This document shows positions 1,999 to 35,352 of a DNA stretch of 36,164 bases, one piece after another. The notes under the pieces were generated by a model. The model saw only the letters and a list, made by a program, of their open reading frames with translations, had not been told where the DNA came from and ran no database searches. A program made the translations under genes and the position numbers. This stretch comes from a bacterium. Its GTDB lineage: Bacteria; Pseudomonadota; Gammaproteobacteria; Burkholderiales; Burkholderiaceae_C. Numbering within the stretch: the stretch's first letter is position 1; each line of letters begins with the position of its first letter. The DNA is taken from contig JAVBXK010000078.1 of NCBI GenBank assembly GCA_030824555.1, positions 1 to 36,164 on the forward strand. Reading direction: 5' to 3'.

Positions 1999-4900
1999 AT
2001 GACCCCTGATGCCAGTTTGCCCGCTGTATCCCTTGCTGCGCCCCTGGGTGCACCCCCCGCACAAGCCGTGCTCGTCCCACCTGGTGGGGCGTATCTGGCG
2101 TCGGCTTTGCGTCAGCAACGCATCAGCGTGCGGGGTGCGCGCACGCACAACCTGAAGAACATTGACCTCGACATCCCGCGCGACCAGCTGGTGGTCATCA
2201 CCGGCTTGTCGGGCTCGGGCAAAAGCAGCCTGGCGTTTGACACTTTGTACGCGGAAGGGCAGCGCCGCTATGTGGAGAGCCTGAGCGCCTACGCCCGCCA
2301 GTTTTTGCAGCTGATGGACAAGCCCGATGTAGACCTGATTGAAGGCCTGTCGCCTGCCATCAGCATCGAACAGAAGGCCACCAGCCACAACCCACGCTCC
2401 ACCGTGGGCACCGTGACCGAAATTCACGATTACTTGCGTTTGCTGTTTGCTCGCGCGGGCACGCCGCATTGCCCCGAACACGGTCAGCCCCTGGCCGCGA
2501 TGAGCGTGAGCCAGATGGTGGATACCGTGCTGTCGCTGCCCGAGGGGACGCGGATCATGGTGCTGGCGCCCATCGCGCGCGAGAAAAAGGGCGAGTTCCA
2601 CGACACCTTCGATGCCCTGATTGCCCAGGGCTACGTGCGGTTTCGGGTCAACGGCCAAACGTTTGAAAGTCACGAGCTGCCCGAGCTGGAAAAAACCCAC
2701 AAACACGACATCGACGTGGTGGTGGACCGCATCAAGGTCCGCGCCGCGCCATCCGCAGGTGAACCGGCCGACGACGGCCCCGCCAGCGAGGAGGCCAAAG
2801 CCTACCTGGCTCAGCGCCAGCGCCTGGCCGAAAGCTTCGAAGCCGCGCTGCGCCTGGCCGAAGGGCGTGCGTTGGTGGTGAACCTGGACGCTGCCGCCGC
2901 GCCCCACATCACATCCCATGCCTCGCAGGCCGATGTGGGAACTTCAGCAATAGCAAACTATTCAATACAGAAAAGCGGTGAAAGGCTTTTTTCTTCCAAA
3001 TTTGCTTGCCCGGTGTGCAGTTACTCGCTGGCCGAGCTGGAGCCCCGGCTGTTCTCGTTCAACTCGCCCTTGGGTGCCTGCCCCAGCTGCAATGGCCTGG
3101 GCCACACTGAGGTGTTCGACGCCACGCGCATCGTCGCCTTCCCGTCGCTCAGCCTGGCCAGCGGGGCCATCAAAGGGTGGGACAGGCGCAACGGCTACTA
3201 CTTCGCCATGCTGGAAAGCCTGGGCACGCACTTTGGTTTTGACGTGGAAGCCCCGTGGGAAGACCTGCCCGAGCAGGCTCGCCAGGTGCTGCTGTTCGGC
3301 TCGGGTGACGTGAACGTGGCGTTCCAGTACGTCATCGACTCGGGCAAAACCGCCGGGCGCAAGGTGACCAAAGAGCACCCGTTCGAGGGCATCGTGCGCA
3401 ACTTCGAGCGCCGCTACCGCGAAACCGACAGCGCCACCGTGCGCGAAGAGCTGGGCCGCTACCGCGCCACCCAGAATTGCCCCGATTGCTGCGGCTCGCG
3501 CCTGCGCAAGGAAGCCCGCCACGTGTTCGTGGGTGAGGGCGCTCAAAAACGGGCCATTTTTGATGTCAGCCACGTCACGCTGGGCGAAGCGCTGGCCTAT
3601 TTCAGCGCCCTGACGCTCAGCGGCGCCAAGGGCGACATTGCGGCCAAGGTGGTGCACGAAATCCGCCAGCGGCTGAAGTTTTTGAACGACGTGGGCCTGA
3701 ACTACCTCAGCCTGGAGCGCAGCGCCGAATCTTTGAGCGGTGGCGAAAGCCAGCGCATCCGGCTGGCCAGCCAGATCGGCGCGGGCCTGACCGGCGTGAT
3801 GTACGTGCTGGACGAGCCCAGCATTGGTCTGCACCAGCGCGACAACGACCGCCTGATTGCCACGCTGCAACACCTGCGCGACCTGGGCAACACCGTGCTG
3901 GTGGTCGAGCACGACGAAGACATGATCCGCACCGCCGACCACGTGATCGACATGGGGCCGGGGGCGGGTGTGCACGGTGGCCGCGTCATGGCCCAGGGCA
4001 CCCCGGCCGAGGTCATGGCCAACCCCAATTCCCCCACCGGCGCGTACCTGAACGGCACCCGCAAAATTGCCGTGCCCACCGAGCGGCACGCCCCGTGGGA
4101 CTGGGTGACCGTGGTCAACGCCACCGGCCATAACCTGAGGGGCGTGACCGTGCCCTTCCCCATCGGCTTGCTGACTTGTGTGACCGGCGTCAGTGGCTCG
4201 GGCAAAAGCACCCTGGTCAACGACACGCTGTACACGGCCGTGGCCAAGCACCTGTACCGCGCCCACGAAGAGCCCGCACCGCACGACGAAATCCAGGGGT
4301 TGGAGCACTTCGACAAGGTCATCAACGTTGACCAGAGCCCCATTGGCCGCACCCCACGCAGCAACCCGGCCACCTACACGGGGCTGTTCACCGCCATCCG
4401 CGAGCTGATGGCCGAAACCAATACCGCCAAAGAGCGCGGCTACGGCCCCGGGCGCTTCAGCTTCAACGTCAGCCAGTCCAGCGGCGGCGGGCGCTGCGAG
4501 GCCTGCCAGGGCGACGGTGTGGTGAAGGTGGAAATGCACTTCTTGCCCGACGTGTACGTGCCCTGCGACGTGTGCCACGGCCAGCGCTACAACCGCGAAA
4601 CGCTGGAGGTGCAATACAAAGGCAAGAACATTGCCCAGGTGCTGGACATGACGGTGGCCGAAGCCGCCGCCTTTTTCAGCGCCGTGCCGTCCATCCACCG
4701 GAAACTGCAAACCCTGCTGGACGTGGGCCTGAGCTACATCCGCCTGGGGCAGAGCGCCACCACCCTGTCAGGCGGCGAAGCGCAGCGCGTGAAGCTGGCG
4801 CTGGAACTGAGCAAGCGCGACACGGGCCGCACGCTCTACATCCTGGACGAGCCGACCACCGGCCTGCACTTTGCCGACATCGAACTGCTGCTGAAGGTGC

Positions 4901-5103
4901 TGCACCAGTTGCGTGACGCGGGCAACACGCTGGTCGTGATTGAGCACAACCTGGACGTCATCAAAACCGCCGACTGGCTCATCGACATGGGGCCGGAGGG
5001 CGGCGCGGGCGGCGGCACGCTGGTGGCATCGGGCACGCCCGAAGAGCTGACCACGTGCGAGGCCAGCTTTACCGGGCGGTATTTGCGGCGGTATTTGAAG
5101 TAA
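1999..5103 (+). CDS. uvrA: Excinuclease ABC subunit A
   Basis: UvrA is the damage-sensing ATPase of nucleotide excision repair and works as a dimer with UvrB. All hallmarks are present: Walker [10 protein letters not shown] (about residues 69-77) and GVSGSGKST (about 730), ABC signatures SLSGGESQR (about 578) and TLSGGEAQR (about 921), and zinc-binding cysteines CPVC/CPSC (from 337) and CEAC/CDVC. At 1034 residues it is longer than the usual ~940. Part of the excess is an N-terminal extension if the ATG at 1999 is right. The rest is an Ala/Glu-rich stretch around residues 255-315, followed by an AT-rich repeat-derived peptide (318-335) directly before the first zinc cysteines. In-frame alternative starts are 1957 (ATG) and 1879 (TTG). 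A small HTH gene follows after 11 bases. Confidence 0.97.
2943..3000 (+). repeat. AT-rich TAGC-N18-AAGCG element, copy in uvrA
   Basis: TAGC at 2951-2954 and AAGCG at 2973-2977 are separated by 18 bases, then GTGAAAGGC and a run of T. It is translated in frame as [18 protein letters not shown] (UvrA residues 318-335). The base composition is sharply lower in GC than the surrounding gene. The final LFSSKF part may be native UvrA sequence, because LFS..FACPVC is usual before the zinc cysteines, so the exact right border is uncertain. Confidence 0.75.
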
Positions 5104-5114
5104 AGAGCGGCAGC

Positions 5115-5402
5115 ATGACACCTGAGCAATTCACACAGGCACTGTCCCAGTTGGGGTTGAAGCAGGCCGACTACGCGCGGCTGATCGACGTCAGCCAGAA
5201 AACCATCTGGATGTGGGTGTCGGGCCGCACCCCCGTGCCCAAGCTGGCCAGCGAGCACCTTGGCTTGTTGCTGGCGCTGAACGACTTGCACAGCCGCTAC
5301 CTGGGTCGCCGCAGCACGGTGGGTGCAGAAGCCGTGCCGTCACCGAACGCTGAGTTGCCGGACGATTGGCCTGATCAGGCTGTCGATTCCACCCATCCTT
5401 GA
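5115..5402 (+). CDS. Small helix-turn-helix protein, function unknown
   Basis: A 95-residue protein whose N-terminal half (MTPEQFTQALSQLGLKQADY, then ARLIDVSQKTIWMWVSGRTP) has the pattern of an XRE/YdaS-like helix-turn-helix, with the recognition helix near QKTIWMWVSG. The C-terminal 30 residues are acidic and probably disordered. It starts 11 bases after the uvrA stop, so it is probably co-transcribed with uvrA. The ATG at 5115 is chosen because an upstream in-frame start would overlap the end of uvrA. No target is evident; it could be an autonomous regulator or a relic of a mobile-element repressor. Confidence 0.72.
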   Translation: MTPEQFTQALSQLGLKQADYARLIDVSQKTIWMWVSGRTPVPKLASEHLGLLLALNDLHSRYLGRRSTVGAEAVPSPNAELPDDWPDQAVDSTHP

Positions 5403-5446
5403 TTTCGCTCAACGCCGCATGCACAGGGGCCGCCTAGACTGCCCCG

Positions 5447-6142
5447 ATGACTGTGTTGCCTGCTGCCGTTGCCACCCAAACCTGCCTGGTGCTTGCACTG
5501 TGTTTGCTGGGCATGCCAAGCCGGGGCGCCAGTTTGTGCGATACGGGTAAGCAGCAGTCGCCCATTGACATCCGCGACACCCAGCGGCGGGCGTTGCCCG
5601 CGTTGGCATTTGCCTACCAGCCAGCGCCGCTCAAAATTGCCAACGACGGGCACACCGCACGGGTGCGTCTGCCCACCGGCAGCACGCTGAAGATCGGCCA
5701 GCAGGTTTACCGGTTGCAGCAACTCCATTTCCACACGCCCGGCGGCGACCAGATTCAGGGCGAAGGCTTTCCCATGGCCGTGCATTTGCTGCACAAAAGT
5801 GCAGCCGGTCAGTTGCTGGCCGTGGTGGTGCTGGTGCGCACGGGCGCCGAAAATGCCGCCTTGGCGTCGCTGCTGCCCCATGTGCCAGCCAGCGCTGGAG
5901 GTGACCAACTGCACCCCGCTGTCAGGGTGGACCCCAACCAATTCTTGCCTGCCCAAGCCGGTTACTACCGCTACCCCGGTTCGCTGACGTCGGCACCCTG
6001 TACAGAAGGGGTGGACTGGATCGTCCTCAAAACGCCCATTGAAGTGTCGGTCGCACAGCTGGCGCGATACCGCCAGACCTTTGCCGACAACGCCCGCCCT
6101 GTTCAGCCCCGCCACCAGCGAACGGTGCTGGAGAGCCTGTGA
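5447..6142 (+). CDS. Exported alpha-carbonic-anhydrase-like protein, active site altered
   Basis: Alpha-class carbonic anhydrases hydrate CO2 in the periplasm using a zinc held by three histidines. Family marks are SPIDI (38-42), the two zinc histidines in LHFHTP (His94, His96), the third in AVHLLH (His113), and GSLTSAPCTEGVDWIVLKTPI-like sequence with Thr181 at the gatekeeper position. Cys31 and Cys185 could form the conserved disulfide. Residues 1-28 look like a signal peptide. Two features are odd. The segment after HFHTP reads GGDQIQG where the family usually has SEHT..G, so the glutamate equivalent to Glu106 is Gly100, and the residue equivalent to Glu117 is Ala111. The N-terminal part before SPIDI is also shorter than usual. 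The fold assignment is firm, but activity is doubtful. The next gene on the same strand starts 74 bases later. Confidence 0.87.
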   Translation: MTVLPAAVATQTCLVLALCLLGMPSRGASLCDTGKQQSPIDIRDTQRRALPALAFAYQPAPLKIANDGHTARVRLPTGSTLKIGQQVYRLQQLHFHTPGGDQIQGEGFPMAVHLLHKSAAGQLLAVVVLVRTGAENAALASLLPHVPASAGGDQLHPAVRVDPNQFLPAQAGYYRYPGSLTSAPCTEGVDWIVLKTPIEVSVAQLARYRQTFADNARPVQPRHQRTVLESL

Positions 6143-6216
6143 GGCGGCCCCTCTGACTCTCTGATGTCGGCCCGCCTGTGTGCCCTTTGTTTTTTCCTTT
6201 TGTTGTTTGACACCAC

Positions 6217-7380: not shown

Positions 7381-7390
7381 CTGTCGGAAC

Positions 7391-7414
7391 AGCGGTTGCT
7401 TGCTTGCAACCGCT
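7391..7414. terminator. 9-bp perfect hairpin between convergent genes
   Basis: AGCGGTTGC (7391-7399) and GCAACCGCT (7406-7414) pair perfectly around a six-base loop. The hairpin lies 10 bases after the stop of the beta-propeller gene and 6 bases from the stop of the convergent hydrolase gene. There is no T-tract on either strand, so termination would be imperfect. Its placement between convergent stops supports a transcript-end role. Confidence 0.5.
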
Positions 7415-7420
7415 GGGCGG

Positions 7421-9898: not shown

Positions 9899-10810
9899 TC
9901 ACCTGCCAGGTTGGGTGGCTTGCCAGATGGCCTCGGCCAGTGGACTCAAGGGGCGTTTGGCGCGGTACAGGCGCACTTCAAAGTCAACCGACAGGGCATC
10001 GCTGCCCAGCACGCACAGTTGACCCGCGCGGCAGGCAGCACCGGCCAGTGACCACGGCAACCAGGCCACACCCAAGCCCTGCAGGGTGTATTCCAGCAGG
10101 GCATCGGCCGAGTCGCAATCCACCACGCGCCGCAAAGGTGGTGCCTGAGGGTGGTTGGCCAGGTGGTCACCCAGTAACCGCCCCAGGGCCAGGTTGCTCG
10201 CGTAGGCCAGCCAGGGCAGTGGGGCACCGGGTTGGGCGGGGTGCCAGTGGTGGGTGGGTTCGCCCAGTGCGTCGCAGCGTGTCAGCGGGACCAGCCTGTC
10301 CTGGGCCAGCGTGCGGTGGCTGTACTGGCGGCCATTCAAACGCACGGCCAGCAGCGGGTGGTGGTAGGTCAGCATGAAGTCGGCCTCGGCCTGCTCCAGC
10401 ATCAATTGGGTTTCGCTCAGCGAGCGGGTGCGCACCACGATTTCGCCTTGCGCCGATGTCAGCAGGGGCTGCAGTTGGCGCAGCCAGTCGGCGACCAGGG
10501 TGCGTGCCAGGGTACGGCCTGTGGCGAGGGTGACGGTGCACTGCTGGCGGCCCGCTGCGCCTTGCAGGGCGTCACGGGCATGGGCCAGTGTTCGGGTCGT
10601 CTGTTGCGCGTGTTCCAGCAGGCTGTGGCCTGCGGCGGTGAGTTGCACCGGGCTGCTGCCACGCTCCAGCAAGGGGGTGCCTGCCCAGTCTTCCAGCGCT
10701 TTGATGCGGCGGCCGAAGGCGGGGTGGGTGACGTGCCGCAGCTCGGCCGCACGGCTGAAGCTGCGGGTGTCGGCCAGGGCCACAAAGTCTTCCAGCCACT
10801 TCAGTTGCAT
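9899..10810 (-). CDS. LysR-family transcriptional regulator (HypT/YjiE-like subgroup)
   Basis: A 303-residue regulator with an N-terminal winged HTH (MQLKWLEDFVALADTRSFSR, AAELRHVTHPAFGRRIKALE) and the LTAAGHSLLEHA end of the linker helix, followed by a substrate-binding-like effector domain. The opening KWLEDFVALA...FSRAAELRHVT.PAF.RRI is most like the HypT/YjiE subgroup; this is from memory of family patterns. Its ATG is at 10810. It lies 91 bases upstream of the Bug gene on the same strand, so it may regulate, and partly be co-transcribed with, the Bug-hydrolase pair rather than being divergent as is usual for LysR regulators. A repeat element occupies its 5' region. Confidence 0.92.
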   Translation of the reverse strand: MQLKWLEDFVALADTRSFSRAAELRHVTHPAFGRRIKALEDWAGTPLLERGSSPVQLTAAGHSLLEHAQQTTRTLAHARDALQGAAGRQQCTVTLATGRTLARTLVADWLRQLQPLLTSAQGEIVVRTRSLSETQLMLEQAEADFMLTYHHPLLAVRLNGRQYSHRTLAQDRLVPLTRCDALGEPTHHWHPAQPGAPLPWLAYASNLALGRLLGDHLANHPQAPPLRRVVDCDSADALLEYTLQGLGVAWLPWSLAGAACRAGQLCVLGSDALSVDFEVRLYRAKRPLSPLAEAIWQATQPGR

Positions 10811-10839
10811 GGTGGGTGCAGGGGCAAGGGGTGGCTAGA

Positions 10840-10895
10840 TTGAAAGCTTTTTTGGCCGCTACCGCTTGTATGGTGTGATTTATTTGCTATGCCAT
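10840..10895 (-). repeat. TAGC-N18-AAGCG element between pyrF and lysR
   Basis: On the minus strand TAGC (10889-10886) and AAGCG (10867-10863) are 18 bases apart, followed by GTAGCGGCC and an A-run instead of the usual T-run. The TAG of TAGC is the stop codon of pyrF. The element fills most of the 76-base gap before the lysR start. Confidence 0.75.
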
Positions 10896-11711
10896 TGAGG
10901 CGTTGAGCACGTCGCGTGTTTTGAGCGCTTCGCGCCTTGCTGCATCGGCAAAGTCGGCGCCGTTGCTCGCGTACAGGATGGCGCGGGACGAGTTGACGGA
11001 AATCAGCCCTTGTGCGGTCAGTCCCGCCTGCACGGTGGCGTGGGCATCGCCACCTTGTGCGCCCACGCCGGGAATCAGCAACGGCAGGGTGGGGGCGATG
11101 TCGCGCACACGCGCAATTTCAGCCGGGTAGGTGGCACCCACCACCAGGCCGAGTTGGCCGTTCACGTTCCAGGGGCCTTGGGCCAGGCGGGCAATGTGCT
11201 CGTACAGCAGGGGTTGGCCGTCCACGCTGGCCAGGCGCTGGCTTTGCAGGTCGTCGCCACCGGGGTTGGACGTGCGACACAGCAGGTAGGCACCCTTGCC
11301 CTCGTACTTCAGGTAGGGCAGCACCGAGTCAAAGCCCATGAAGGGCGACAGCGTGACGCAGTCGGCCTGGTAGCGCTCGAAAGCCTCTTTGGCGTACTGT
11401 TCGGCGGTAGAGCCAATGTCGCCGCGCTTGGCATCCAGAATGACCGGCACGTTGGGGGCCACGCGGCGCATGTGGACCATCAGCTTTTCAAGCTGGTCTT
11501 CGGCGCGGTGGGCAGCGAAGTAGGCAATTTGTGGCTTGAACGACTGTGCGATGTCGGCGGTGGCATCGACGATGGCAGCGCAGAAGTCAAAAATTTTGCT
11601 GGCATCGCCCTGCCAGGCACCGGGGAAACGGCTGGGCTCGGGGTCCAGGCCCACGCAGAGCAGGCTGTTGTGTTGCGCTGTGGCCGCGCGGAGCATGTCG
11701 GTGAAGGTCAT
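10887..11711 (-). CDS. pyrF: Orotidine 5'-phosphate decarboxylase (type 2)
   Basis: PyrF catalyses the last step of UMP synthesis, decarboxylating OMP. The 274-residue length is that of the longer type 2 (archaeal/actinobacterial/beta-proteobacterial) form. LCVGLDPE is at the N-terminus and the catalytic core [12 protein letters not shown] has Asp93, Lys95 and Asp98. [11 protein letters not shown] forms the phosphate-binding loop near the C-terminus. The ATG is at 11711. Its TAG stop falls inside a repeat element. It lies downstream of udg on the same strand, separated by about 250 bp that hold a long inverted repeat. Confidence 0.95.
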
Positions 11712-11960: not shown

Positions 11961-12881
11961 TCATGCAGTGGGGGTGTACCCCTCCAGCGGGTTGTACCCC
12001 AGGTGGGCCATGGCCAGGCACAGGTCAGCCCACACCTTGCCCTTTTCGGCAGGGCTGCGCAGCAGGTAGGCGGGGTGGTAGCTGACCACCACTGGCCGCC
12101 CGTTCATGTGGTACACCTGCCCGCGCAGTTTGCCCAGGGGCAGCTTTTCGATGTCGGGCACCACGTTGGCCAGCACGGTTTGGGCGGCGAAGCGGCCCAG
12201 GGCCAGGATAAGGTCGGGCTGCACCAGCTCGATCTGGCGCTGCAGGAAGGGCGCGCACTGCGCCACCTCGGCGGGTTCGGGGTTGCGGTTGTGCGGTGGG
12301 CGGCACTTGATGACGTTGGCGATGTACACGTCTGCCTCGCGGGTCAGGCCCATGGCGGCCAGCATGGCGTCCAGCAACTGCCCGGCAGGGCCCACAAAGG
12401 GCAGGCCTTGCTTGTCTTCCTGCTCGCCCGGGGCTTCGCCCACGATCAGCCAGCGTGCCCGCGGGTTGCCCATGCCGGGAACAGCCTGTTTGCGGCCCTG
12501 GCACAGGCCGCAGGCGGTGCACTGCTGAATGGCTTCGGTCAGCGCTGGCCAGTCCAGCGCGGCCAGCGTGGATGTGGCATGGGCTGTTGATGGCGCATTT
12601 TCTGAATCAAAAACGGCTTTACCGCTTTTGTTGATTGAATGGTTTGCTACCGATCTTGGAGGCGGTGACGGCGCTGCTGGGGCCACACGGGGAGGTGTCA
12701 GGCTGGCGGCCGGTTGCGCGAGGGCCGCAACGGTGGCCGTGTGGCTGACTTCGGTGCCCGTGTCGGTGCCTTTGCCGGTTTCGGTCGCGTTCTCTGGCCA
12801 CCAGTAGGTCACACCCATGGCTGCGAGCATCTCGCGCTGGCGTGTGTCCAGGTTCAGGCTGTGGTCTGCGGGTGTCGTCAT
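11961..12881 (-). CDS. udg: Uracil-DNA glycosylase, family 4 (Fe-S)
   Basis: Family 4 UDGs remove uracil from DNA and carry a 4Fe-4S cluster. The four cluster cysteines are visible as Cys121, Cys124, Cys193 and Cys209. Motif 1 is GEAPGEQED (148-156), followed by QGLPFVGPAGQLLD; motif 2 is YHPAYLLR (268-275). The first ~105 residues form a variable, Pro/Ala/Thr-rich linker before the catalytic domain. That linker contains a peptide encoded by a repeat element (residues 78-95). ATG 12881 overlaps the stop of rimI as ATGA, making tsaB-rimI-udg a coupled operon. Confidence 0.94.
   Translation of the reverse strand: MTTPADHSLNLDTRQREMLAAMGVTYWWPENATETGKGTDTGTEVSHTATVAALAQPAASLTPPRVAPAAPSPPPRSVANHSINKSGKAVFDSENAPSTAHATSTLAALDWPALTEAIQQCTACGLCQGRKQAVPGMGNPRARWLIVGEAPGEQEDKQGLPFVGPAGQLLDAMLAAMGLTREADVYIANVIKCRPPHNRNPEPAEVAQCAPFLQRQIELVQPDLILALGRFAAQTVLANVVPDIEKLPLGKLRGQVYHMNGRPVVVSYHPAYLLRSPAEKGKVWADLCLAMAHLGYNPLEGYTPTA
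12600..12657 (-). repeat. TAGC-N18-AAGCG element, copy in udg
   Basis: On the minus strand TAGC (12649-12646) and AAGCG (12627-12623) are 18 bases apart, followed by GTAAAGCC and TTTTT. It is read in frame in udg as VANHSINKSGKAVFDSEN (residues 78-95), in the same frame as the uvrA and cnoX copies. It lies in the variable linker of Udg. Confidence 0.75.
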
Positions 12882-20045: not shown

Positions 20046-21266
20046 TCAGAACGGCGGAAGGCCCAGCAGGGCACAAGCCTGCAATGCCGTGGCACGGGCA
20101 CCTTCGGGTGTGGCGGCCGTGATGTTCAGGTGACCCATTTTTCGGCCATGCCGGGCATCGAGCTTGCCGTACAGGTGCAGGTGCGTACCGGGCAAAGCCA
20201 GCACAGCATCCCAGGCGGGCGAGCGTTGGCTGCCGTCGGCCGCAAACCACAGGTTGCCCAAGATGTTGAGCATGATGGCCGCGCTGTGCAGGCGCGGCTG
20301 CACCAGTGGCAAACCGGCCATGGCACGCACTTGCAGCTCGAATTGCGACACCGTGCACGCGTTCTGCGTGTAGTGGCCGCTGTTGTGCGGGCGGGGAGCC
20401 ATTTCGTTGACCACCAGCGCCCCGTGCGCACTGCCGTCATCGACCACAAAAAACTCGACGCACAGCACACCTACATAGTTCAGATGGGTTGCAATGAACT
20501 TTGTAGCTGCTATCGCTTTTTCTGAAAGCGCTGGAGCCATGTTTTGTTCATAAACTTCAGTCACGGCCAGGATGCCGTCTCGGTGCAGGTTGCGCTGCAC
20601 AGGGAAGTTCACGCACGCACCGTCTGCACCGCGCGCCACGATGACCGAGCACTCGGCCACCAGGGGCAGCATTTTTTCCAGCACGCAGGGCACGCGCCCC
20701 AGCGTGTCCCAGGCGGCGGCCAGTTCGTCACGGTTGCGCACGCGCACTTGGCCTTTGCCGTCATAACCCAGGCGGGCCGTTTTCAGGATGCCGGGCAGCA
20801 GGTCTGCCGGCACGGCGGCCAGCAGCTCGGGGGTGGTGATGGCCGCGTAGGGTGCGGGGAACACGGCCTGGTCAGGGTGGGCCTGGGCCACGTCCACGAA
20901 CAGGGCTTTTTCTTTCACGCGGTCCTGCGCCACGGCCACGCAACTGGCGGCAGGGGCCACCGGTCGGTGCGCGCCCAGCGTCAGCAGTGCGGGGGCGGGC
21001 ACGTTTTCAAACTCGGTGGTGATGGCGTCGCAGCGTTGCATCAGCTGCGCCAAGCCCTGCTCGTCGTCGTACGCAGTCTGGATGTGGTAATGGCTGACGC
21101 GCCCGGCGGGGCTGGCCGGATCGGGGTCCAGCACCGCCGTGAAGTAGCCCATGGCCTGTGCCGCGTGGACGAACATGCGGCCCAATTGGCCGCCGCCCAT
21201 CACGCCCAGCGTGAGTTGCTGGCCACGGGCCGATGTGCTGCCGGGGAGAAGCGCGGTTGAAGTCAT
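20046..21266 (-). CDS. purK: 5-(carboxyamino)imidazole ribonucleotide synthase
   Basis: PurK uses ATP and bicarbonate to carboxylate AIR to N5-CAIR in purine synthesis; PurE then isomerises the product. It is an ATP-grasp enzyme of 406 residues: MGGGQLGRMF at the N-terminus, TARLGYDGKGQ, VEFFVVDDG and NEMAPRPHNSGHYT are diagnostic. The ATG at 21266 is the family start. An antisense-oriented repeat element falls at the loop reading YEQNMAPALSEKAIAATKF, still in frame. The 81-base gap after purE contains a run of nine G (21288-21296 on the plus strand). Confidence 0.96.
   Translation of the reverse strand: MTSTALLPGSTSARGQQLTLGVMGGGQLGRMFVHAAQAMGYFTAVLDPDPASPAGRVSHYHIQTAYDDEQGLAQLMQRCDAITTEFENVPAPALLTLGAHRPVAPAASCVAVAQDRVKEKALFVDVAQAHPDQAVFPAPYAAITTPELLAAVPADLLPGILKTARLGYDGKGQVRVRNRDELAAAWDTLGRVPCVLEKMLPLVAECSVIVARGADGACVNFPVQRNLHRDGILAVTEVYEQNMAPALSEKAIAATKFIATHLNYVGVLCVEFFVVDDGSAHGALVVNEMAPRPHNSGHYTQNACTVSQFELQVRAMAGLPLVQPRLHSAAIMLNILGNLWFAADGSQRSPAWDAVLALPGTHLHLYGKLDARHGRKMGHLNITAATPEGARATALQACALLGLPPF
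20497..20560 (+). repeat. TAGC-N18-AAGCG element, antisense copy in purK
   Basis: On the plus strand TAGC (20504-20507) and AAGCG (20526-20530) are 18 bases apart, followed by CTGGAGCC and a T-rich stretch. It starts TAGCTGCT, the variant it shares with the cnoX copy, and contains a small hairpin CGCTTT/AAAGCG. Because purK is on the minus strand, the element is read from its complement, without a stop. Confidence 0.72.
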
Positions 21267-22024: not shown

Positions 22025-22933
22025 ATGACAGATGTGACCGTTGCCAATTTCGAAGCCGAAGTCGTTGAAGCCTCTCTCCACACCCCCGTTCTGGTCGATT
22101 TCTGGGCACCGTGGTGCGGCCCGTGCAAGTCGCTGGGCCCCGTGCTCGACAAGCTGGAAGCCGACTACGGTGGCCGCTTCAAGCTGGTGAAGGTCAATTC
22201 CGACGACGAACAGGAGCTGGCCGGTGCATTCGGCATCCGCAGCATCCCCACCTGTGTGCTGATGGTGGGCGGCAAGCCGGTGGACGGCTTCATGGGTGCG
22301 CAGACCGAGGGCCAAGTGAAAGCCTTTTTGGACAAGCACGTGCCCGCCGCCGACGAACTGGAAGCCGAATCGGCAGAAGACGCGGCCCTGGATGCCCTGG
22401 CCGATGGCGATGTGGCGGGCGCGCTGGGCAAGTTGCAGCTTGCCGTGGACACCGACCCTGAAAACGACGATGCCCGCTTCGACCTGGTCAAACTGCTGTT
22501 GCAGCAAGGTTTTGAAGACGAGGCCAAGGTGGCGTTTGCCCCGGTCATCGCCAAATCGGCGGGTGTGCGCAGGCTTGACGCGCTGAACCATTGGATCAAG
22601 GCTATTGATTCGGTAGCTGCTCACGCTGATGCAGAAAGCGCTGAGGCCGATTTTCATTCAAAAATTGCAGCCAACAAGCGCGATTTCGAGGCCCGCTTTG
22701 GCTTGGCCCGCCTGCGCATGGCCCAGCAGCGCTGGACCGACGCCATGGACGAGCTGCTGGAAATCCTGATGCGCGACAAAGCCTGGAGCACCGACCTGGC
22801 GCGCAAGACCTACGTGGCCATCCTGGACATCATCGAGCCGCCCAAACCCAAGGTGGCCGAGGGCCAGATCCCGCCCGAAGACCCGACCGTGGTCACGTAC
22901 CGCCGCCGCTTGTCGAGCGTGGTGCTGAGCTGA
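22025..22933 (+). CDS. cnoX: Thioredoxin-domain co-chaperone (CnoX/YbbN-like)
   Basis: An N-terminal thioredoxin domain (about 1-108) with an intact WCGPC active site (Cys31, Cys34) is joined to an alpha-helical C-terminal part with TPR-like repeats (ALDALADGDVAGALGKLQLA, FEARFGLARLRMAQQRWTDA). This is the architecture of CnoX (YbbN), a holdase that hands clients to GroEL and DnaK and protects cysteines from over-oxidation. E. coli CnoX has SxxC; this one keeps CxxC and could still reduce disulfides. Length 302. The ATG at 22025 gives the standard start. A repeat-derived peptide lies at residues 197-214, between TPR helices. A strong terminator follows. Confidence 0.9.
   Translation: MTDVTVANFEAEVVEASLHTPVLVDFWAPWCGPCKSLGPVLDKLEADYGGRFKLVKVNSDDEQELAGAFGIRSIPTCVLMVGGKPVDGFMGAQTEGQVKAFLDKHVPAADELEAESAEDAALDALADGDVAGALGKLQLAVDTDPENDDARFDLVKLLLQQGFEDEAKVAFAPVIAKSAGVRRLDALNHWIKAIDSVAAHADAESAEADFHSKIAANKRDFEARFGLARLRMAQQRWTDAMDELLEILMRDKAWSTDLARKTYVAILDIIEPPKPKVAEGQIPPEDPTVVTYRRRLSSVVLS
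22603..22665 (+). repeat. TAGC-N18-AAGCG element, copy in cnoX
   Basis: TAGC (22614-22617) and AAGCG (22636-22640) are 18 bases apart, followed by CTGAGGCC and a T-rich stretch. It is read in frame as VAAHADAESAEADFHSKI (residues 197-214), the same frame as the uvrA and udg copies. It belongs to the TAGCTGCT variant with the purK copy. Confidence 0.75.
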
Positions 22934-26265: not shown

Positions 26266-26283
26266 CAAAATCCCCTAAAAAAT

Positions 26284-27800: not shown

Positions 27801-27839
27801 GGGGTGAAGTCTCCGGTTGAGGGCTGTCAGGCACACCGT

Positions 27840-28001: not shown

Positions 28002-28364
28002 ATGACCGCCACACCTTCCGATGCGACGCCTCTTCTGGACATTGACGCGCTCAATGACCTGAAAGACATGTTGGCCGAAGCCCTGACAGAGATCGCCGAT
28101 ACGTTCCTGGACGGACTCGATGCCGAGGTCGACGCCGTGGGGGCTGGCATTCTGGCGGGCGGGCCAGCCGCTCGTGCGGCAGCGCATTCGCTCAAGGGCA
28201 GTGCAGGCAACCTGGGTGGACGCGCATTGGCTCTGCAGGCGTCTGCCATTGAAAAGGCCGCTGTGGATGGTGACCTGGCGCGCTGCCAGGCGCTGTTCCC
28301 GGCGTTGCAGGCACTGGCCGGGCAAACCCGCGACGCGTTGAGGGCCTACTTGGCACAGCCCTGA
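28002..28364 (+). CDS. Histidine phosphotransfer (Hpt) domain protein
   Basis: A stand-alone 120-residue Hpt protein, a relay for phosphate between histidine kinases and response regulators. The phosphorylation site HSLKGSAGNLG is clear, with His62. The rest is the expected four-helix bundle (DALNDLKDMLAEALTEIADT at the start). ATG 28002 follows a good AGGA ribosome site. It is convergent with the REC-GGDEF-EAL gene; a role in phosphorylating that receiver is a reasonable inference. Between the two stops, hairpins CAACC/GGTTG and CCCCC/GGGGG (about 28397-28431) may end both transcripts. Confidence 0.88.
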   Translation: MTATPSDATPLLDIDALNDLKDMLAEALTEIADTFLDGLDAEVDAVGAGILAGGPAARAAAHSLKGSAGNLGGRALALQASAIEKAAVDGDLARCQALFPALQALAGQTRDALRAYLAQP

Positions 28365-28477
28365 TTCGGCGGCAGACGGTGACCAGAGAGCGCCCTCAAC
28401 CCTGGTTGTGCCAGGTCCCCCGAAGAGGGGGCACCGTTCTTGGGGCGGCCCGGCGAACGACTTGAGCTTGAGCCCGG

Positions 28478-30568: not shown

Positions 30569-30664
30569 GGGGGGCTTTCTTGCAGATAGGCGTACTTGGA
30601 TTTCAAACCATTGTAGGCACTGCTCGGGCTGATCAGTCAGGTTCGTGGGACCTGTGCCGACAGG

Positions 30665-31372
30665 TCACACGGGTATGCCAGATGGTTGGCGTGGTGGCGG
30701 CCGCCACGTCAGCGTGTGCACGACTGCTGCGGTGGCCCAGCACAGCCAGGCTGTCCACAGGGTGTGGCTGAAGAAATGTGCGCCGCGCGCCTGCTGTGCC
30801 CAACCCAGCACCATGCCGACCAGCAGCACGGCCGCCCAGGCCCATGCCCCGGCACGGGGTGACACAGCCTGAAGCCAAACGGCCAGCGCCACGAACGCAA
30901 AGCCGGTGGAGGCGTGCCCGGCCGGGAAGCAGTGCCCACCGCCGCCGTCACGCACGCCCCAGGCCCAGTGCGACACGTGTTGCGCGGTGCCACCGAAGGC
31001 CGTGAGGTCCCACGGGCAGCTGGTTCGGCTGACCCCTTTGATGGCCACCACCACCAGCAAGGCGAGCAGCACGGTTCCCACCATCCATGCGCGTTCGCGG
31101 CGGCTCAGGTGCTTGAGTGCGCCCACCGGCCACCAGATGCATGCCGTCAGCAGGGCCAGCACCACCCAGCCGAGCTTGCGAGCGCCTTCGTGCAGCCAGG
31201 CTGACAGGAACGGGTGGTGTTGCAGGGGGAACCCGTCTGCCGTGCCGAACCAATGCGCCAGTGGCAGGTCCAGCCCGCTGGCATCCCACAGCCACAACAG
31301 TGGCAGCACCGCACAGACACCTGCAAGTTTTTTCCAGCGTTGGCGCAGTACAGCGGGATGTGATTCATGCAT
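30665..31372 (-). CDS. PAP2-family membrane phosphatase
   Basis: A 235-residue inner-membrane PAP2 (acid phosphatase superfamily) protein with several hydrophobic helices. The three catalytic blocks are KGVSRTSCPWDL (variant of KxxxxxxRP), FPAGHASTGF (the PSGH block, with the active-site His) and ARGAHFFSHTLWTAW (the SRxxxxxH block). Substrates of the family are lipid phosphates, such as undecaprenyl pyrophosphate, phosphatidic acid or lipid A phosphate. It lies 50 bases after eptA and is probably co-transcribed, which favours lipid A or a related lipid phosphate. ATG 31372 is chosen; a GAAGG ribosome site eight bases upstream belongs to a repeat element. Confidence 0.88.
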   Translation of the reverse strand: MHESHPAVLRQRWKKLAGVCAVLPLLWLWDASGLDLPLAHWFGTADGFPLQHHPFLSAWLHEGARKLGWVVLALLTACIWWPVGALKHLSRRERAWMVGTVLLALLVVVAIKGVSRTSCPWDLTAFGGTAQHVSHWAWGVRDGGGGHCFPAGHASTGFAFVALAVWLQAVSPRAGAWAWAAVLLVGMVLGWAQQARGAHFFSHTLWTAWLCWATAAVVHTLTWRPPPRQPSGIPV

Positions 31373-31420
31373 AAAAATGCCTTCACCGCTTGTTTGACGG
31401 TTGTTATTTGCTATCAATGT
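31366..31420 (-). repeat. TAGC-N18-AAGCG element in the eptA-PAP2 gap
   Basis: On the minus strand TAGC (31413-31410) and AAGCG (31391-31387) are 18 bases apart, followed by GTGAAGGC and TTTTT running into the PAP2 start codon. The GAAGG of the element is in the right place to be the ribosome site of the PAP2 gene. It fills nearly the whole 50-base gap between the eptA stop and the PAP2 start. Confidence 0.78.
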
Positions 31421-31422
31421 GA

Positions 31423-33090
31423 TCACTGTTTGGGTTGTCGACAGGTCCGGTAGGCATCGAGTGTGGGCTGGTACACGCTGGTTTGCACGTCCATCAACCC
31501 CAACACGCTGTGGAACAGGTTGTCGTGGCTCATGGCCAGGTCGGTCTGTTTGGCCAGGCAAGCGGGGTTGAGTGCCAGCCGTTGTTGCATGGCGGGCGAC
31601 AGCCAGGTCACCCAGGGCACGTGCTTCTGTTCTTGCGGGGCCAGCGCATAGGGCAGGCCATGCAGGTACAGGTTGTTTTCACCCAGCGATTCGCCGTGGT
31701 CGGACACATACAGCAGCGACGTGTCGGCCTGCTGGGCCCCCAGCCAGGCCACGGCATCGGCCAGGAAGCGGTCTGTGTAGCGCAACGAGTTGTCGTAGGC
31801 GTTGATCACGGCTTCCTGTGAGCAGCTTTGCAGCGCCGTGCTGGTGCATTCAGGTTGGAAGGCCTTCAGGCTGTCTGGCGACCGCTTGTAATAGGCTGGC
31901 CCGTGGCTGCCCATCTGGTGCATCACCACCACGGTGCCACGGGCGCGGCGTTCGGCGCTCAGGCCGTCGAGTTGCGACTTCAGTTCTTTGAGCATGATGC
32001 CGTCCAGGCACTCGCCATCGGTGCACAGCGCGGGGTCGGTCAGGTCGCGGGTGACGGTGTTGGGCACCCGGTCGCACACGCCTTTGCAGCCAGACTGGTT
32101 GTCCAGCCACACCACGGCCAACCCGGCGTGCTGCAGCACGTCGAGCAGGTTTTCGAAGCGACCGGATTTGCTTTCATGCACCTCTTTGCCATGGTGCGAG
32201 AACATGCACGGCACAGATGCCTGCGTGTTGGTGCCGCACGAGCGGACGTTGCCGAACCACACGAGGTTGCCTGCTTTGGCCAGCGCCTGAAGCTGCGGGT
32301 TGGTGTCGCGGCCGTAACCGGCCAGTGAAAAGTTGGCCGCCCGGGCCGTTTCACCTACTACCAGAATCAGCATGGGTGGGCGCTTCTGGTCGGCATAGCT
32401 GGGGCCCGGCTTGGCATCGGTGCCAATGGCCTGCAGCGGTTGCTGCGCGCGCGGCACGGCATCGGCCACCAGGCGGCCCAGCGCGTAGACGCTGTTGAGT
32501 GGGTTGATGCGGTAACGCACGTCTTTGTGGTTGCGCATGATGGACGCGAAGTCCTGAAATATCAGGAACAGCGACAGCGCGGCCACCACAAGGGCCACGC
32601 CCAGCGTGGCCAGGTTCTGCGTCACCCGCCGCACCCAGCTGAGCGGCTGCAACGGGGTGGTGGGTTGGCGCAACAGCCACCAGGCAGGTGCGATGCCCAC
32701 GGCCAGCATCGTGACGGCAAACCCCACCGACATCAGGTCTGCAGCTTCTTTCGGGTCGGTGTGCAGCACGTTGAGCAGCATGCTGCTGTCGATGACCACC
32801 GAGTACGCCAGCATGAAATGCGTGGCACTGGCCGCACTGAGCAGCAGGAACACGGCCACCGGCTTGAGCACCCTGGGCCATGCCAGCAGCGCCAGCAAAG
32901 CGGTCAGGATGGCTGCAACGAACGTGCCGAAGCCCAGCATGAACAGCGTGCCGCGCAGGCCGGTCACTTCGGGCAGCGCGTTCAGCGCTTTCCACAAAGC
33001 GATGTTGCCCACGACGGCCAGCCAGGTAGCGGTGACCGTGGCCAGCAGCCACAAGGGCCAGGGGCTGCGGTTGGCAGAGAAAAAGCTCAT
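31423..33090 (-). CDS. eptA: Phosphoethanolamine--lipid A transferase
   Basis: EptA (PmrC) adds phosphoethanolamine to lipid A phosphates at the periplasmic face of the inner membrane, lowering negative charge and affinity for polymyxin and other cationic peptides. The first ~180 residues hold five membrane segments. The periplasmic sulfatase-fold domain follows, with VVGETARAANFSLAGYGRDT (metal Glu247), SCGTNTQASVPCMFS (catalytic Thr in the 287-289 pair), DNQSGCKGVCDR, and VSDHGESLGENNLYLHG (metal Asp/His). Length 555 is standard. It is followed by a PAP2 gene and preceded by a PmrA-like box. This is an intrinsic chromosomal form, not a plasmid mcr gene by context. Confidence 0.95.
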   Translation of the reverse strand: MSFFSANRSPWPLWLLATVTATWLAVVGNIALWKALNALPEVTGLRGTLFMLGFGTFVAAILTALLALLAWPRVLKPVAVFLLLSAASATHFMLAYSVVIDSSMLLNVLHTDPKEAADLMSVGFAVTMLAVGIAPAWWLLRQPTTPLQPLSWVRRVTQNLATLGVALVVAALSLFLIFQDFASIMRNHKDVRYRINPLNSVYALGRLVADAVPRAQQPLQAIGTDAKPGPSYADQKRPPMLILVVGETARAANFSLAGYGRDTNPQLQALAKAGNLVWFGNVRSCGTNTQASVPCMFSHHGKEVHESKSGRFENLLDVLQHAGLAVVWLDNQSGCKGVCDRVPNTVTRDLTDPALCTDGECLDGIMLKELKSQLDGLSAERRARGTVVVMHQMGSHGPAYYKRSPDSLKAFQPECTSTALQSCSQEAVINAYDNSLRYTDRFLADAVAWLGAQQADTSLLYVSDHGESLGENNLYLHGLPYALAPQEQKHVPWVTWLSPAMQQRLALNPACLAKQTDLAMSHDNLFHSVLGLMDVQTSVYQPTLDAYRTCRQPKQ

Positions 33091-33171
33091 GTGCAGGGAT
33101 CCCGCTCGCAGGCAGGTGTGTGTGACGTGATGGGCAAAACCGTGGGTTGCGACCGACGGTAGCAGTCTTGT

Positions 33172-33188
33172 GTTAACCCAGTCTTAAG
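33172..33188 (-). promoter_or_regulatory. PmrA (BasR)-like box upstream of eptA
   Basis: The minus strand reads CTTAAG-ACTGG-GTTAAC: two TTAA half-sites with an 11-base period, close to the PmrA consensus YTTAAK-N5-YTTAAK. It lies about 80 bases before the eptA ATG and close to the azlD stop. PmrAB control of eptA is well known in enterobacteria; its use here is inferred. No pmrAB genes are in the window. Confidence 0.5.
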
Positions 33189-33199
33189 TGAGCAGGGCC

Positions 33200-33541
33200 T
33201 CACAACCCCCAACCCAGCCCTAAGCGCAGCGCCAGGTAAATGGCCATGCCGATGACGATGGTGCCCAGCACATCCTTGCGCCAGAAGAACCACGCTGCAC
33301 CGGCCGCTACCGCGAACAGTCGGGGCTCCTGCCAGGTATGGATCAGCGCGCCCTGCGTCATCACCACCTCGGGGATGACGACCGCGCCCAGCGCCGCGAT
33401 GGGTGCATATTGCAAGCCGCGCTGCGCCCAGTGCGGCAGTGTCCATGGTTTGTCTGACAGGAAAAACAGGCACCGCGTGAGCACGGTGACCCCCGCGAGC
33501 AGCACGATGGTGAACAGCGTCCAGGCGTCCGTTTCAGTCAT
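33200..33541 (-). CDS. azlD: AzlD-family branched-chain amino acid exporter small subunit
   Basis: A 113-residue, four-helix membrane protein of the AzlD/YgaH family, the small partner of AzlC in exporting branched-chain amino acids and analogues. Signatures are the opening LFTIVLLAGVTVLTRCLFFL and YAPIAALGAVVIPEVV. The ATG at 33541 lies eight bases inside the end of azlC, so translation is coupled. Confidence 0.9.
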   Translation of the reverse strand: MTETDAWTLFTIVLLAGVTVLTRCLFFLSDKPWTLPHWAQRGLQYAPIAALGAVVIPEVVMTQGALIHTWQEPRLFAVAAGAAWFFWRKDVLGTIVIGMAIYLALRLGLGWGL

Positions 33542-34283
33542 GTTTGCCTCCGTGGGGAGCCGGTGCGCGCTGCGCATCGATGATCAGTGCCAAGGTCACG
33601 GCCACGGCAATGGCCACCACGATGTTCAGCTTGAGCGGCAGGGCCCACGCCGTGACGGCCGCCATGCCTGACACTGCCATGGACACGGTACGCAGCGGCG
33701 AGGTGGCCAGCGACAGCATCACCCCCAGCAACGCCAGGATGCCCGCAAACCCCAGCCCCCAGTGCGTGGGGATGACGTTGGCCAGCGCGATGCCCGTCAG
33801 GCTGGCGCCCATCCAGGCCACGTAATTGACCGCGCAGTTGCCCATCAGGTAGGCCTGCTGGGCCTGCAACTCGCTGGCAGGGGTGGCCGCATCGGGGTGG
33901 TGCGGGAAGCGCCTTGAAAAAAACACGTAGCTCAGGTCGGCGGTGAGGTAGCCCGTGACCAGGCGTTCGCGCAGCGGCATGTGCATGACGTAAGGACGCA
34001 AGTGGGCCGAAAACACCACGAACCGCAGGTTGACGCAAAAAGCCGTGGTCAGGATGACCCACAGTGGTGCCCCGGCCGCGATCAGCGGTATGGCCGCCAG
34101 TTGCGCGCTGCCAGCAAACACCAGCAGGGTCATGGCCACAGCCTCGACGGCGCTCATGCCCGAGTTGATCATGGCCACACCGGTCATCAGCCCCCATGCG
34201 CCGATCCCTGTGGCCACACTGGCCAGGTCGCGCACGCCAATGCGGAATTCCGGGTGGCGGTAGTAGGCGGGTCTCAGGAACAT
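33534..34283 (-). CDS. azlC: AzlC-family branched-chain amino acid exporter large subunit
   Basis: A 249-residue membrane protein with about six to eight helices. Family marks are GIGAWGLMTGVAMINSGMS, LLVFAGSAQLAAIPLI, FCVNLRFVVFSAHLRPYV, GYLTADLSYVFFSRRF and MGNCAVNYVAWMGAS. AzlC with AzlD exports branched-chain amino acids and analogues such as 4-azaleucine. ATG 34283 lies seven bases after the fmt stop, so it is likely the third gene of a def-fmt-azlC-azlD operon. An earlier in-frame start would run through the fmt tandem repeat and is rejected. Confidence 0.92.
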   Translation of the reverse strand: MFLRPAYYRHPEFRIGVRDLASVATGIGAWGLMTGVAMINSGMSAVEAVAMTLLVFAGSAQLAAIPLIAAGAPLWVILTTAFCVNLRFVVFSAHLRPYVMHMPLRERLVTGYLTADLSYVFFSRRFPHHPDAATPASELQAQQAYLMGNCAVNYVAWMGASLTGIALANVIPTHWGLGFAGILALLGVMLSLATSPLRTVSMAVSGMAAVTAWALPLKLNIVVAIAVAVTLALIIDAQRAPAPHGGKHD

Positions 34284-34290
34284 GGGCGGA

Positions 34291-35352
34291 TCAGGCGCGG
34301 GTGCCTGGCGTTTCAGCCAAGGCACCACCCAGTACATCACCCAACACGTCGCCCAGCACGTCACCCAGCACGTCACCCACGGCCACGGGGCAGCCGCGCA
34401 GGAAGTCGGCTGCGGCCAGGCGCTTGCCGCCTGCGCGTTGCAAATGGGTGAGCGTCAGCACGCCCTGCCCGGTTTGCACCGTGATACCAGTCTCATTTAT
34501 ATGTAAAACAGTGCCATTTCGCTTTTCTGTATTGAAAACTTTGCTATCAATTGAGTGCGATTCCTCGGTGAAGGGCTGTGCGCCCCATATTTTCAGCGTG
34601 TCACTCCGCCAGTGGGTGCTGGCACCGGGGAAGGGGTCGAACGCGCGCACGCGCCGTGCAATGGCTGTGGCGCTGTCAGCCCAGTTGATGGTGCTTTCAG
34701 CTTTTTCTATCTTGTGTGCGTAGGTCACGCCTTCTGCCGGTTGGGGTGTGCGGGTCAACCCGCCACAGGCGGCCAGCTCCAGCGTTTCCACCATCAGGCG
34801 CCCCCCCAAGGCTGCCAGCCGGTCGTGCAGGGTGGTGGTGGTGTCCGTTGCAGAAATGGCCAGCCGTTCGGTCACCAGCATGTCGCCCGTGTCCAGCCCG
34901 GCGTCCATTTGCATGATGGTCACACCGGTTTCGGCATCGCCCGCTTCAATGGCCCGGTGGATGGGGGCAGCCCCCCGCCAGCGTGGCAGCAGCGAGGCGT
35001 GGATGTTCATGCAGCCCAGGCGTGGCAGGTCCAGCACCCACTGCGGCAGGATGAGGCCGTAGGCGGCCACCACCAGCACGTCCAGTCGCGCGTCCAGCAG
35101 TGCCTGGCGGGCAGCAGCGGCCTCGTCAGGGTATTTGCCGTCCAACCGCAGGCTGTGGGGTTGTGCCACGGCAATGGCATGGACAAGCGCCCATTGCTTG
35201 ACGGGCGAGGCCTGCAACTTCATGCCGCGACCGGCGGGGCGGTCGGGTTGGCTCAGCACCAGTGGTACGTCGAACCCGGCGGCATGCAATGCGGCCAGTG
35301 CCGTGCAGGCAAATTCCGGGGTGCCAGCAAAACCCACGCGCAACGTGGCCAT
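34291..35352 (-). CDS. fmt: Methionyl-tRNA formyltransferase
   Basis: Fmt formylates initiator Met-tRNA using 10-formyltetrahydrofolate. The N-terminal domain has [20 protein letters not shown], and the catalytic set [15 protein letters not shown] (Asn116, His118) with DAGLDTGDM. The C-terminal OB domain has [19 protein letters not shown] and LQRAGGKR. At 353 residues it is longer than the usual ~315. The excess comes from a repeat-derived loop (about 266-280: [15 protein letters not shown]), roughly ten residues longer than the matching loop in E. coli Fmt, and from a C-terminal tail with four GDVL units. The ATG at 35352 shares a base with the def stop (TGATG). Confidence 0.96.
34330..34377 (-). 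repeat. Four 12-bp tandem units at the 3' end of fmt
   Basis: Four consecutive 12-base units (34330-34341, 34342-34353, 34354-34365, 34366-34377). The last two are identical (CAGCACGTCACC on the plus strand); the first and second each differ from that unit at two positions. They encode [17 protein letters not shown] in Fmt residues 326-342. The number of units could vary between strains without changing the frame. Confidence 0.9.
34490..34560 (-). repeat. TAGC-N18-AAGCG element, copy in fmt
   Basis: On the minus strand TAGC (34546-34543) and AAGCG (34524-34520) are 18 bases apart, followed by AAATGGC and a T-rich stretch. It shares a run with the uvrA copy (TTCAATACAGAAAAGCG). It is read in a different frame from the uvrA, udg and cnoX copies, as [13 protein letters not shown]. 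Confidence 0.75.

Follow-up and report, generated by a model that had tools for sequence, protein, structure and literature searches.

The 36,164-nucleotide contig JAVBXK010000078.1 (GenBank assembly GCA_030824555.1), from a bacterium of the Burkholderiaceae_C lineage of Burkholderiales and referred to here over its whole length as the window, carries seven copies of a short element in which TAGC and AAGCG are separated by exactly 18 bases (TAGC-N18-AAGCG). The element is a unit of about 63 bp (60-70 bp) which recurs about 950 times in the genome, as extrapolated from the matches found in 826 kb. It lies on both strands at unusually even distances, often persists at orthologous places in related species, and changes in form and abundance from one genome to another. 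It is very probably a maintained duplex recognition site rather than a decaying insert or an RNA. The combined evidence points, with a probability that we place a little under an even chance, to an uptake-signal-like marker of self DNA which would be kept in the chromosome by drive.

A spaced and evenly distributed site

All seven copies are exact matches to the spaced pattern, compared with a mean of 0.02 in shuffled sequence, and none of 100 shuffles of the window reached seven. The genome as a whole holds 465 exact matches (229 and 236 on the two strands), compared with 28 (16 and 12) for the reversed pattern. In 826 kb of this genome the 18-base distance is the only enriched spacing, with 95 copies; each of twelve alternatives (12-17 and 19-24 bases) occurs 0-5 times, and a few versions with a 17-base spacing look real (position 10803 of locus L033, and in L031). 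A profile trained iteratively on 436 kb of the genome, with an information content of 47.8 bits, gives 79 matches of at least 18 bits in the training sequence and 0 in its reversed form, and 86 matches of at least 12 bits compared with 5 in the control. A further 390 kb outside the training set contains 73 matches of at least 18 bits, compared with 1 in the control. The two sets combine to 152 matches in 826 kb, or one per 5.4 kb, a count that includes some overlapping pairs such as 16483/16500 in L043. The original prediction had listed the seven copies, proposed a profile search and a genome-wide comparison with shuffled sequence, and estimated about one copy per 5 kb on both strands, inside and between genes. 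The observation is confirmed, and the excess over the reversed pattern passes the refutation test set in the prediction. Small corrections are needed: GGC or GCC starts 4 to 6 bases after AAGCG, not five to nine, the unit measures about 63 bp, and the two sequence variants distinguished there show no clean split.

Alignment of the seven window copies, and of 53 exact copies from the 436 kb, defines a unit with sharp edges at about -10 and +52 relative to the T of TAGC. Its left half consists of an A/T tract, R-TAGC-W and a loosely A-rich interior with C12-A13, and its right half of an A-rich run leading to AAGCG at +22, followed by (G/C)T-RR-A-G-(G/C)-C. In the tail, positions +37 to +40 are occupied by four T (or four A), and positions +48 to +52 read AA-WWW. 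Two A/T tracts lie downstream of the core AAAGCGGT, about 11.5 bp apart. Within the T/A tract TTTT and AAAA are interchangeable. Closely spaced pairs are also found, with two head-to-tail pairs offset by 61 bp (L041 10779/10840 and L049 18946/19007) and two head-to-head pairs 56-57 bp apart (L032 13441/13498 and L039 11109/11165) in 400 kb, and the paired sequences have diverged.

The strands are balanced on six contigs, with plus/minus counts of 10/11, 28/23, 12/21, 11/11, 8/10 and 3/4. The coefficient of variation of the 126 gaps on these contigs is 0.671, a value reached by 0 of 10,000 uniform simulations, which give 0.921; on two contigs, the evenness was likewise reached by 0 of 5,000 simulations that drew random intergenic positions. 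Gaps of less than 300 bp were merged beforehand for the real sites and for the uniformly simulated ones, and left unmerged for those drawn at random from intergenic positions. According to a home-made codon-usage gene caller, 45 of the 152 matches lie wholly inside genes (24 sense, 21 antisense) and 107 are intergenic (56) or overlap a gene end (51). When 4 matches at contig edges are left out, spacers between convergent genes are over-used (27 compared with 13.4 expected by length), those between divergent genes are under-used (10 compared with 26.8), and co-oriented spacers hold 66 compared with 62.8. In a relative whose genome is a single contig (G120), the strict pattern occurs at 62 and 55 sites on the two strands along the whole chromosome, and 61 forward sites show no significant clustering. 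An apparent run of plus-strand sites among the listed matches was judged an effect of listing: for G120, 100 of the 117 places are shown and reverse-strand ones only to 2.33 Mb.

Correlations between columns of the aligned copies bear on the form in which the site is read. In the own genome, the 25 column pairs with the highest mutual information, taken without a shuffle baseline, are mostly neighbours, above all in the T/A tract, with exceptions such as 5/11 and -9/44, and pairing between potential arms is about what independent columns would give. This near-chance pairing, together with the neighbouring information, therefore suggests that the duplex itself is recognised, through its shape and a few short GC words, and a hairpin of RNA or single-stranded DNA was rejected on the same grounds. 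A scan of the window with Rfam covariance models gave no match above the gathering score. The consensus of 83 copies from seven other genera extends further to the left and has greater symmetry: GCTAY-N-N-WWW-N-N-RTAGC-TGCY-N-GCGCTT-...-AAGCGC-T-R-GAGGCC-N-ATTT...AA, with the dyads GCTAY...RTAGC and GCGCTT...AAGCGC and a GTAG-like start. Here eight of ten arm pairs remain near expectation, and two exceed it among the 83 copies: 11-25 (67 compared with 48.8) and, more weakly, 7-29 (39 compared with 29.9). Pair 11-25 follows genus dialect and includes 13 G-G mismatches. The covariation test across these genera is confounded by genus structure, because distant pairs that oppose each other in no stem (35/48, -11/4 and others) score nearly as high as 11/25.

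The seven window sites are given in Table 1. Three of the host genes carry presumed names: the gene of site 3 is presumably that of a uracil-DNA glycosylase (udg), that of site 7 is taken to be fmt, and cnoX at site 5 follows the original prediction. The start codon of the gene adjoining site 6 is uncertain, and the gene caller places this site inside the gene. At site 2, the stop codon of pyrF is the TAG of the element (10887-10889). This use of TAG as the pyrF stop seems to be retained in the relatives L164, L168 and L171. A site is carried by the uracil-DNA glycosylase gene in two genera, at different places in the protein (G015, L176 near 3112; window 12597-12659), where the G015 gene is likewise assumed to encode this enzyme.

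Table 1. Copies of the 63-bp unit in the window, with profile scores.
Site	Unit	Exact match	Strand	Location	Score (bits)
1	2941..3003	2951-2977	+	inside uvrA, sense, hypervariable linker	60.8
2	10837..10899	10863-10889	-	3' end of pyrF	48.4
3	12597..12659	12623-12649	-	presumed uracil-DNA glycosylase gene, sense, N-terminal linker	60.9
4	20494..20556	20504-20530	+	inside purK, antisense, protein length unchanged	51.8
5	22604..22666	22614-22640	+	presumed cnoX-like thioredoxin/TPR gene, sense	49.2
6	31361..31423	31387-31413	-	at or immediately upstream of the start of a minus-strand gene	42.6
7	34494..34556	34520-34546	-	inside presumed fmt, sense	53.3

Persistence, dialects and distribution

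Five of the window sites (uvrA, pyrF, udg, purK and cnoX) were compared with relatives through their orthologous flanks. Within the genus the site is in place in 13 of 15 comparisons (uvrA 4/4, pyrF 3/4, udg 2/3, purK 2/2, cnoX 2/2). The uvrA site is in place in five of five same-genus genomes (G302, G301, G117, G280 and G300) despite a surrounding linker that cannot be aligned, the pyrF site is kept in G301, G280 and G117, and the udg site in G300 and G117. The purK and cnoX sites are both kept in G117, G300 and UBA2334, and neither is present in UBA7470. A near relative, CALMMY, whose PurK is 89% identical, shows weak copies in place at purK and cnoX, which score 15.4 and 10.7 bits on the own-genome profile and 30.2 and 16.5 bits on a general one, in a genome holding only 3 strict copies. 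Orthologous copies are 81% identical (679/837) at the informative positions of the profile and 58% identical (398/682) at the uninformative ones, a contrast that is partly circular because the copies were found with the profile. Relatives that do not have the site show substitutions in place, another linker or a diverged spacer at its position.

The purK gene offers the widest comparison. There is no gap at the site region in any of 80 purK loci, site-bearing or not, and the PurK of structure 4izo, which we take to be from Burkholderia, also aligns without gaps across it. The site occurs at the same codons in records of Polaromonas, Curvibacter, Rhodoferax, Diaphorobacter and Comamonas, whereas among these 80 loci the purK records of Hydrogenophaga (except L119, at 16 bits) and Limnohabitans have none. 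Where the site scores at least 15 bits (17 loci), the A/T fraction at third codon positions is 0.64 in the site and 0.146 elsewhere in the gene, compared with 0.18 and 0.139 where it scores below 0 bits (58 loci), although this contrast is partly circular because the score itself rewards A/T. The cnoX gene, readable in 70 of the 80 loci, behaves similarly: the nine site-bearing loci are all gap-free and show 0.68 in the site and 0.216 elsewhere, compared with 0.199 and 0.184 in the 60 loci below 0 bits. The difference within a gene is large, at three- to fourfold, and counts of the element across the genome are independent of the score. These counts follow purK, with a Spearman correlation of 0.71 between the purK score and the genome-wide number of strict copies in 47 genomes, comprising all the higher-scoring loci and part of the site-free ones, minus L085. 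Genomes with a purK score of at least 40 have 9-164 strict copies (11 genomes), those below 10 have 0-3 (29 genomes) and those between have 0-22 (7 genomes), and a genome-wide factor therefore seems to govern single sites. An exception is the Polaromonas L122, which has purK and cnoX sites and no strict copy, and perhaps uses another dialect. Among the purK records, L144 (NZ_JAUOFB010000008.1), titled Hymenobacter sp. BT730, has a PurK 67% identical to the betaproteobacterial one of the window, which suggests contamination of that assembly.

In a survey of 299 genomes of the window's family, 37 (21 genera) carry 50 or more exact copies and exceed the count of the reversed pattern at least twofold. 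The spread within a genus is wide, with 568, 42 and 97 exact copies in three genomes of one (g16) and 174, 259 and 5 in another (g89). A second strict form, with AAGGG in place of AAGCG, reaches at least 10 and up to 194 copies in 28 of the 299 genomes, 15 of them outside the 37. Counting both dialects, 52 of the 299 genomes are rich in one or the other, and many species of the family have different dialects or no sites. Each of the three own-genus genomes in this draw has 0 copies of the AAGGG form, and in a Comamonas metagenome-assembled genome most of the copies listed read GCCC.../AAGGGC. A draw across the order found a single strict AAGCG match in each of 10 genomes, and none with more, among 387 genomes from 50 other families; four of the 12 family members in the same draw have strict AAGCG matches, numbering 24 to 142. 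Abundance of a strict form is confined to the family of the window, in agreement with the link to Comamonadaceae made in the original prediction. The site is scarce in viral contigs: seven carry one match each, to the strict hairpin variant and not to the A-rich one of the own genome.

A putative uptake signal and its alternatives

A strong consensus, unbiased strands, evenness, persistence, gap-free sites in conserved genes, dialects and genome-wide scarcity together make the element resemble an uptake sequence. We infer that a single protein reads the site, that it is an uptake receptor and that the sites are maintained by drive. The type IV pilus or competence machinery would expose a DNA receptor at the cell surface that binds TAGC, AAGCG(G/C)T and GGC, the duplex being bent by its phased A/T tracts, and DNA carrying the site would be imported. 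Recombination of this DNA would restore and spread chromosomal sites (molecular drive), and with such drive nearly a thousand long sites could be maintained without individually important function. On both strands, sites would form and be kept mainly through substitutions and small indels wherever the sequence tolerates them, and would become evenly spaced. A change of receptor would shift them jointly to a new dialect, and its loss would leave them to decay in place. Somewhat more doubtful is the broader proposal that these features represent a third, independently evolved DNA uptake signal system in Comamonadaceae-type Betaproteobacteria, with a 60-70-bp site, two contact regions, phased bends and several dialects across many genera.

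Several observations weigh against an uptake role. At about 63 bp, compared with about 30, the unit has twice the length of known uptake sequences, and at about one per 5.4 kb, compared with about one per kb, it is some five times less frequent. No uptake receptor was found, ComEC being the only competence gene tested; its family (PF03772) is present in 60 of 61 genomes, 30 site-rich and 31 others, whether rich or poor in sites, and does not discriminate between them. ComEC was accordingly set aside as a marker of site-rich genomes. The division itself is imperfect, since site-poor genomes were first defined by AAGCG only, and of these G178 proved rich in AAGGG and G255 intermediate. A profile match lies 3' of a single-copy gene of the REP-associated tyrosine transposase (RAYT) type in 9 of 13 site-rich loci, compared with 2 of 14 others. 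Within the genus, two sites are missing: that of pyrF in G300, where the spacer and the next gene differ, and that of udg in G280, which has another linker there. Gain and loss between genes cannot be read in site-poor congeners because their spacers are too diverged; around comEC, site-rich and site-poor species of one genus share few alignable sites. To these should be added the partial circularity of the identity and third-position contrasts described above. Finally, among 31 intragenic sites with site-free homologues, which include orthologous repeats (purK, cnoX, glycosylase) and some doubtful reading frames, 17 are mostly gap-free and 14 gapped, compared with 784 gap-free of 1058 neighbouring control windows, and the length of the G015 glycosylase gene differs by 17-20 residues, near the size of a unit, in the three alignments shown. 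Another gene, whose site-free homologue is about 86% identical, gained 7 residues with the site, one third of the length of the site. Gapped alignments and length differences therefore suggest that sites occupy linkers of variable length, where they take in small indels, and a whole unit may at times be inserted. No clean empty site of unit length was found at orthologous places, where the G015 difference is the one near-unit case and terminal duplications were not searched for. In the site-rich G003 the ComEC match (C1:1836740-1837544) falls into three pieces, possibly reflecting a broken or mis-sequenced gene.

Part of the doubt about an uptake signal comes from an architectural protein, which could account for a large share of this evidence. 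A lineage-specific protein organising the nucleoid or chromosome, which binds and bends DNA about every 5 kb, would make evenness itself the function. The phased A/T tracts and the mostly neighbouring correlations suggest a bent, protein-wrapped duplex, and even spacing, the use of both strands, sites along the whole G120 chromosome and persistence in place also fit. However, about 48 bits per site far exceeds what a protein would need to find some 900 sites and would be a heavy load without renewal, genome-wide scarcity or a change of dialect within a genus would be odd for a chromosome organiser, and there is no candidate protein; we consider this explanation unlikely. A role in self-marking or recombination of another kind, such as a Chi-like site or one read by a defence system, through which the cell would protect or process its own DNA, would agree with sites that are chromosome-wide, scarce in viral contigs and collectively lost or altered. 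The element is long and without strand bias, unlike known Chi-type sites, which are short and show a strong strand bias; such a role is decidedly improbable. Most doubtful of all is an RNA element or a transcription terminator at gene ends, despite the 107 intergenic or gene-end matches and the preference for convergent over divergent spacers: the sense matches inside genes, that of uvrA among them, the antisense ones, the near-chance arm pairing in the own genome and the negative Rfam scan of the window all speak against it.

Mobility deserves separate consideration, since a short repeat like a repetitive extragenic palindrome (REP) or a miniature inverted-repeat transposable element (MITE), mobilised by a RAYT (TnpA-REP) encoded once in the genome or by another transposase and later decaying, would account for presence and absence within a genus, for the near-unit length difference and for the tandem and head-to-head pairs. 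The dyads of the other genera, with their GTAG-like start and two arm pairs above independence, are also consistent with this origin. The transposase domain Y1_Tnp occurs in 27 of 30 site-rich genomes, but also in 23 of the 31 others, and three site-rich genomes (G269, G196 and G141) have no match to it. The site beside the RAYT-like gene recurs in several genera, about 320 bp past the gene match and on the opposite strand (L190, L192, L193, L196, L197, L199, L204, L207 and L210; also L191 and L208), in a count from which the IS200-like loci L182, L186 and L187 were excluded. In the own genome a copy with a 17-base spacing, invisible to the profile and recognised by eye, lies 3' of such a gene (L031, about 1040-1090), and in L205 a site is on the 5' side. 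This recurrence need not be causal, because conserved places are common, as at purK. Moreover, purK and the site-bearing cnoX loci are free of gaps, degraded copies are few (the count rises only from 79 to 86 between the two profile thresholds, with 5 in the control), arm pairing in the copies of the own genome is close to chance, the spacing is even, and 45 of 152 matches are inside genes rather than extragenic. A REP- or MITE-like origin is hence improbable.

The original prediction had seen in the fixed spacing a conserved structure, a protein site or a mobile unit rather than drift. The exact spacing, the A/T tracts with short GC words, the neighbour correlations and orthologous persistence favour a protein site and speak against drift. 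A conserved structure is not supported in the own genome, and in other genera two of ten arm pairs exceed independence; of a mobile unit, presence and absence were observed, and the expected clean insertions were not.

If the element is an uptake signal, each dialect would be a record of receptor change and a genetic barrier between related species. As a third case, in bacteria common in soil and fresh water, it would open the old question of why uptake signals exist to tests on a new branch, where sites have been gained and lost and dialects switched naturally within single genera. Should the function differ, the sites, about 950 per genome and each 63 bp long, would nonetheless form a very large uncharacterised set, one that leaves an imprint on codon use in conserved genes.

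Relation to known systems

A repeat present in Bordetella and Comamonadaceae, the Betaproteobacterial repeat element (BRE), also has some copies in genes, but is about 90 bp long, 69% GC in Bordetella, tandem and variable in number, with at most 29 copies (PMC3110155); it was set aside on its printed composition and copy number, by description only. The REP sequences of the GTAG superfamily share with the element an RTAG start and dyads in some genera, and a single-copy RAYT-like gene that has a site close to the 3' end. They differ in that the element is longer, shows near-chance arm pairing in the own genome, has many intragenic copies and is gap-free at purK and cnoX, and in that Y1_Tnp is neither present in all site-rich genomes nor restricted to them. 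The names of Comamonadaceae genera looked for did not occur in a word search of two REP papers.

Among earlier sightings, only PMC5217627 was found in a search covering mostly titles and abstract openings. It describes as potential novel motifs GCTTAT(N)5AAGCG in Acidovorax ebreus (114 copies) and ATAGCT(N)22CAAAAG in Polaromonas naphthalenivorans (125 copies), and reports in Rhodoferax ferrireducens the most spaced pairs of all genomes in the study. The two motifs match in register positions 11-26 and -1 to 32 of the element, are mostly intergenic and often lie between convergent genes, with few between divergent ones in A. ebreus. Judged by this register, they would be the element described here, although they are given there as two separate motifs, fragments of the unit, without functional or evolutionary analysis. 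No paper combining the terms DNA uptake sequence and Comamonadaceae was found in a search of literature excluding supplements. As of 2006, Pasteurellaceae and Neisseriaceae were described as the only families known to have uptake signals (PMC1626085), and no third family with such signals was found in the literature searched.

The DNA uptake sequence (DUS) of Neisseriaceae is likewise a family-wide marker with species dialects (PMC3630211), present on both strands in a betaproteobacterial host. However, the DUS of Neisseria is only a 10-mer and lacks flanking motifs (PMC1626085), and its receptor, ComP, is known (PMC3868556); by eye its sequence shows no likeness to the element.

The overall profile of the element is closest in kind to that of the uptake signal sequence (USS) of Pasteurellaceae (PMC1626085; PMC7811141; PMC1939737). 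Apart from its length and sparsity, the element differs from the USS in having an upstream TAGC half at an exact 18-bp spacing, in belonging to a different bacterial class, in that its intragenic sites are gapped more often than their neighbourhood, and in that its uptake role is putative. The core AAAGCGGT resembles the USS (AC)AAGCGGT, which exists as an Apl type, ACAAGCGGT, with A/T segments, and a Hin type, AAGTGCGGT, with A/T segments about 12 apart (PMC1626085). In both the element and the USS, two A/T segments lie downstream about a helical turn apart (PMC1626085). Both also combine a strong consensus with A/T tracts that are, or in the element would be, read by shape (PMC1626085; PMC7811141). 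Similarly, both occur on the two strands, in genes and in spacers, with a relatively even distribution and types that follow subclades, and the USS is described as originating largely by substitution (PMC1626085; PMC7811141), a mode of origin with which the gap-free sites of the element at purK and cnoX agree, but not its 14 mostly gapped intragenic sites.

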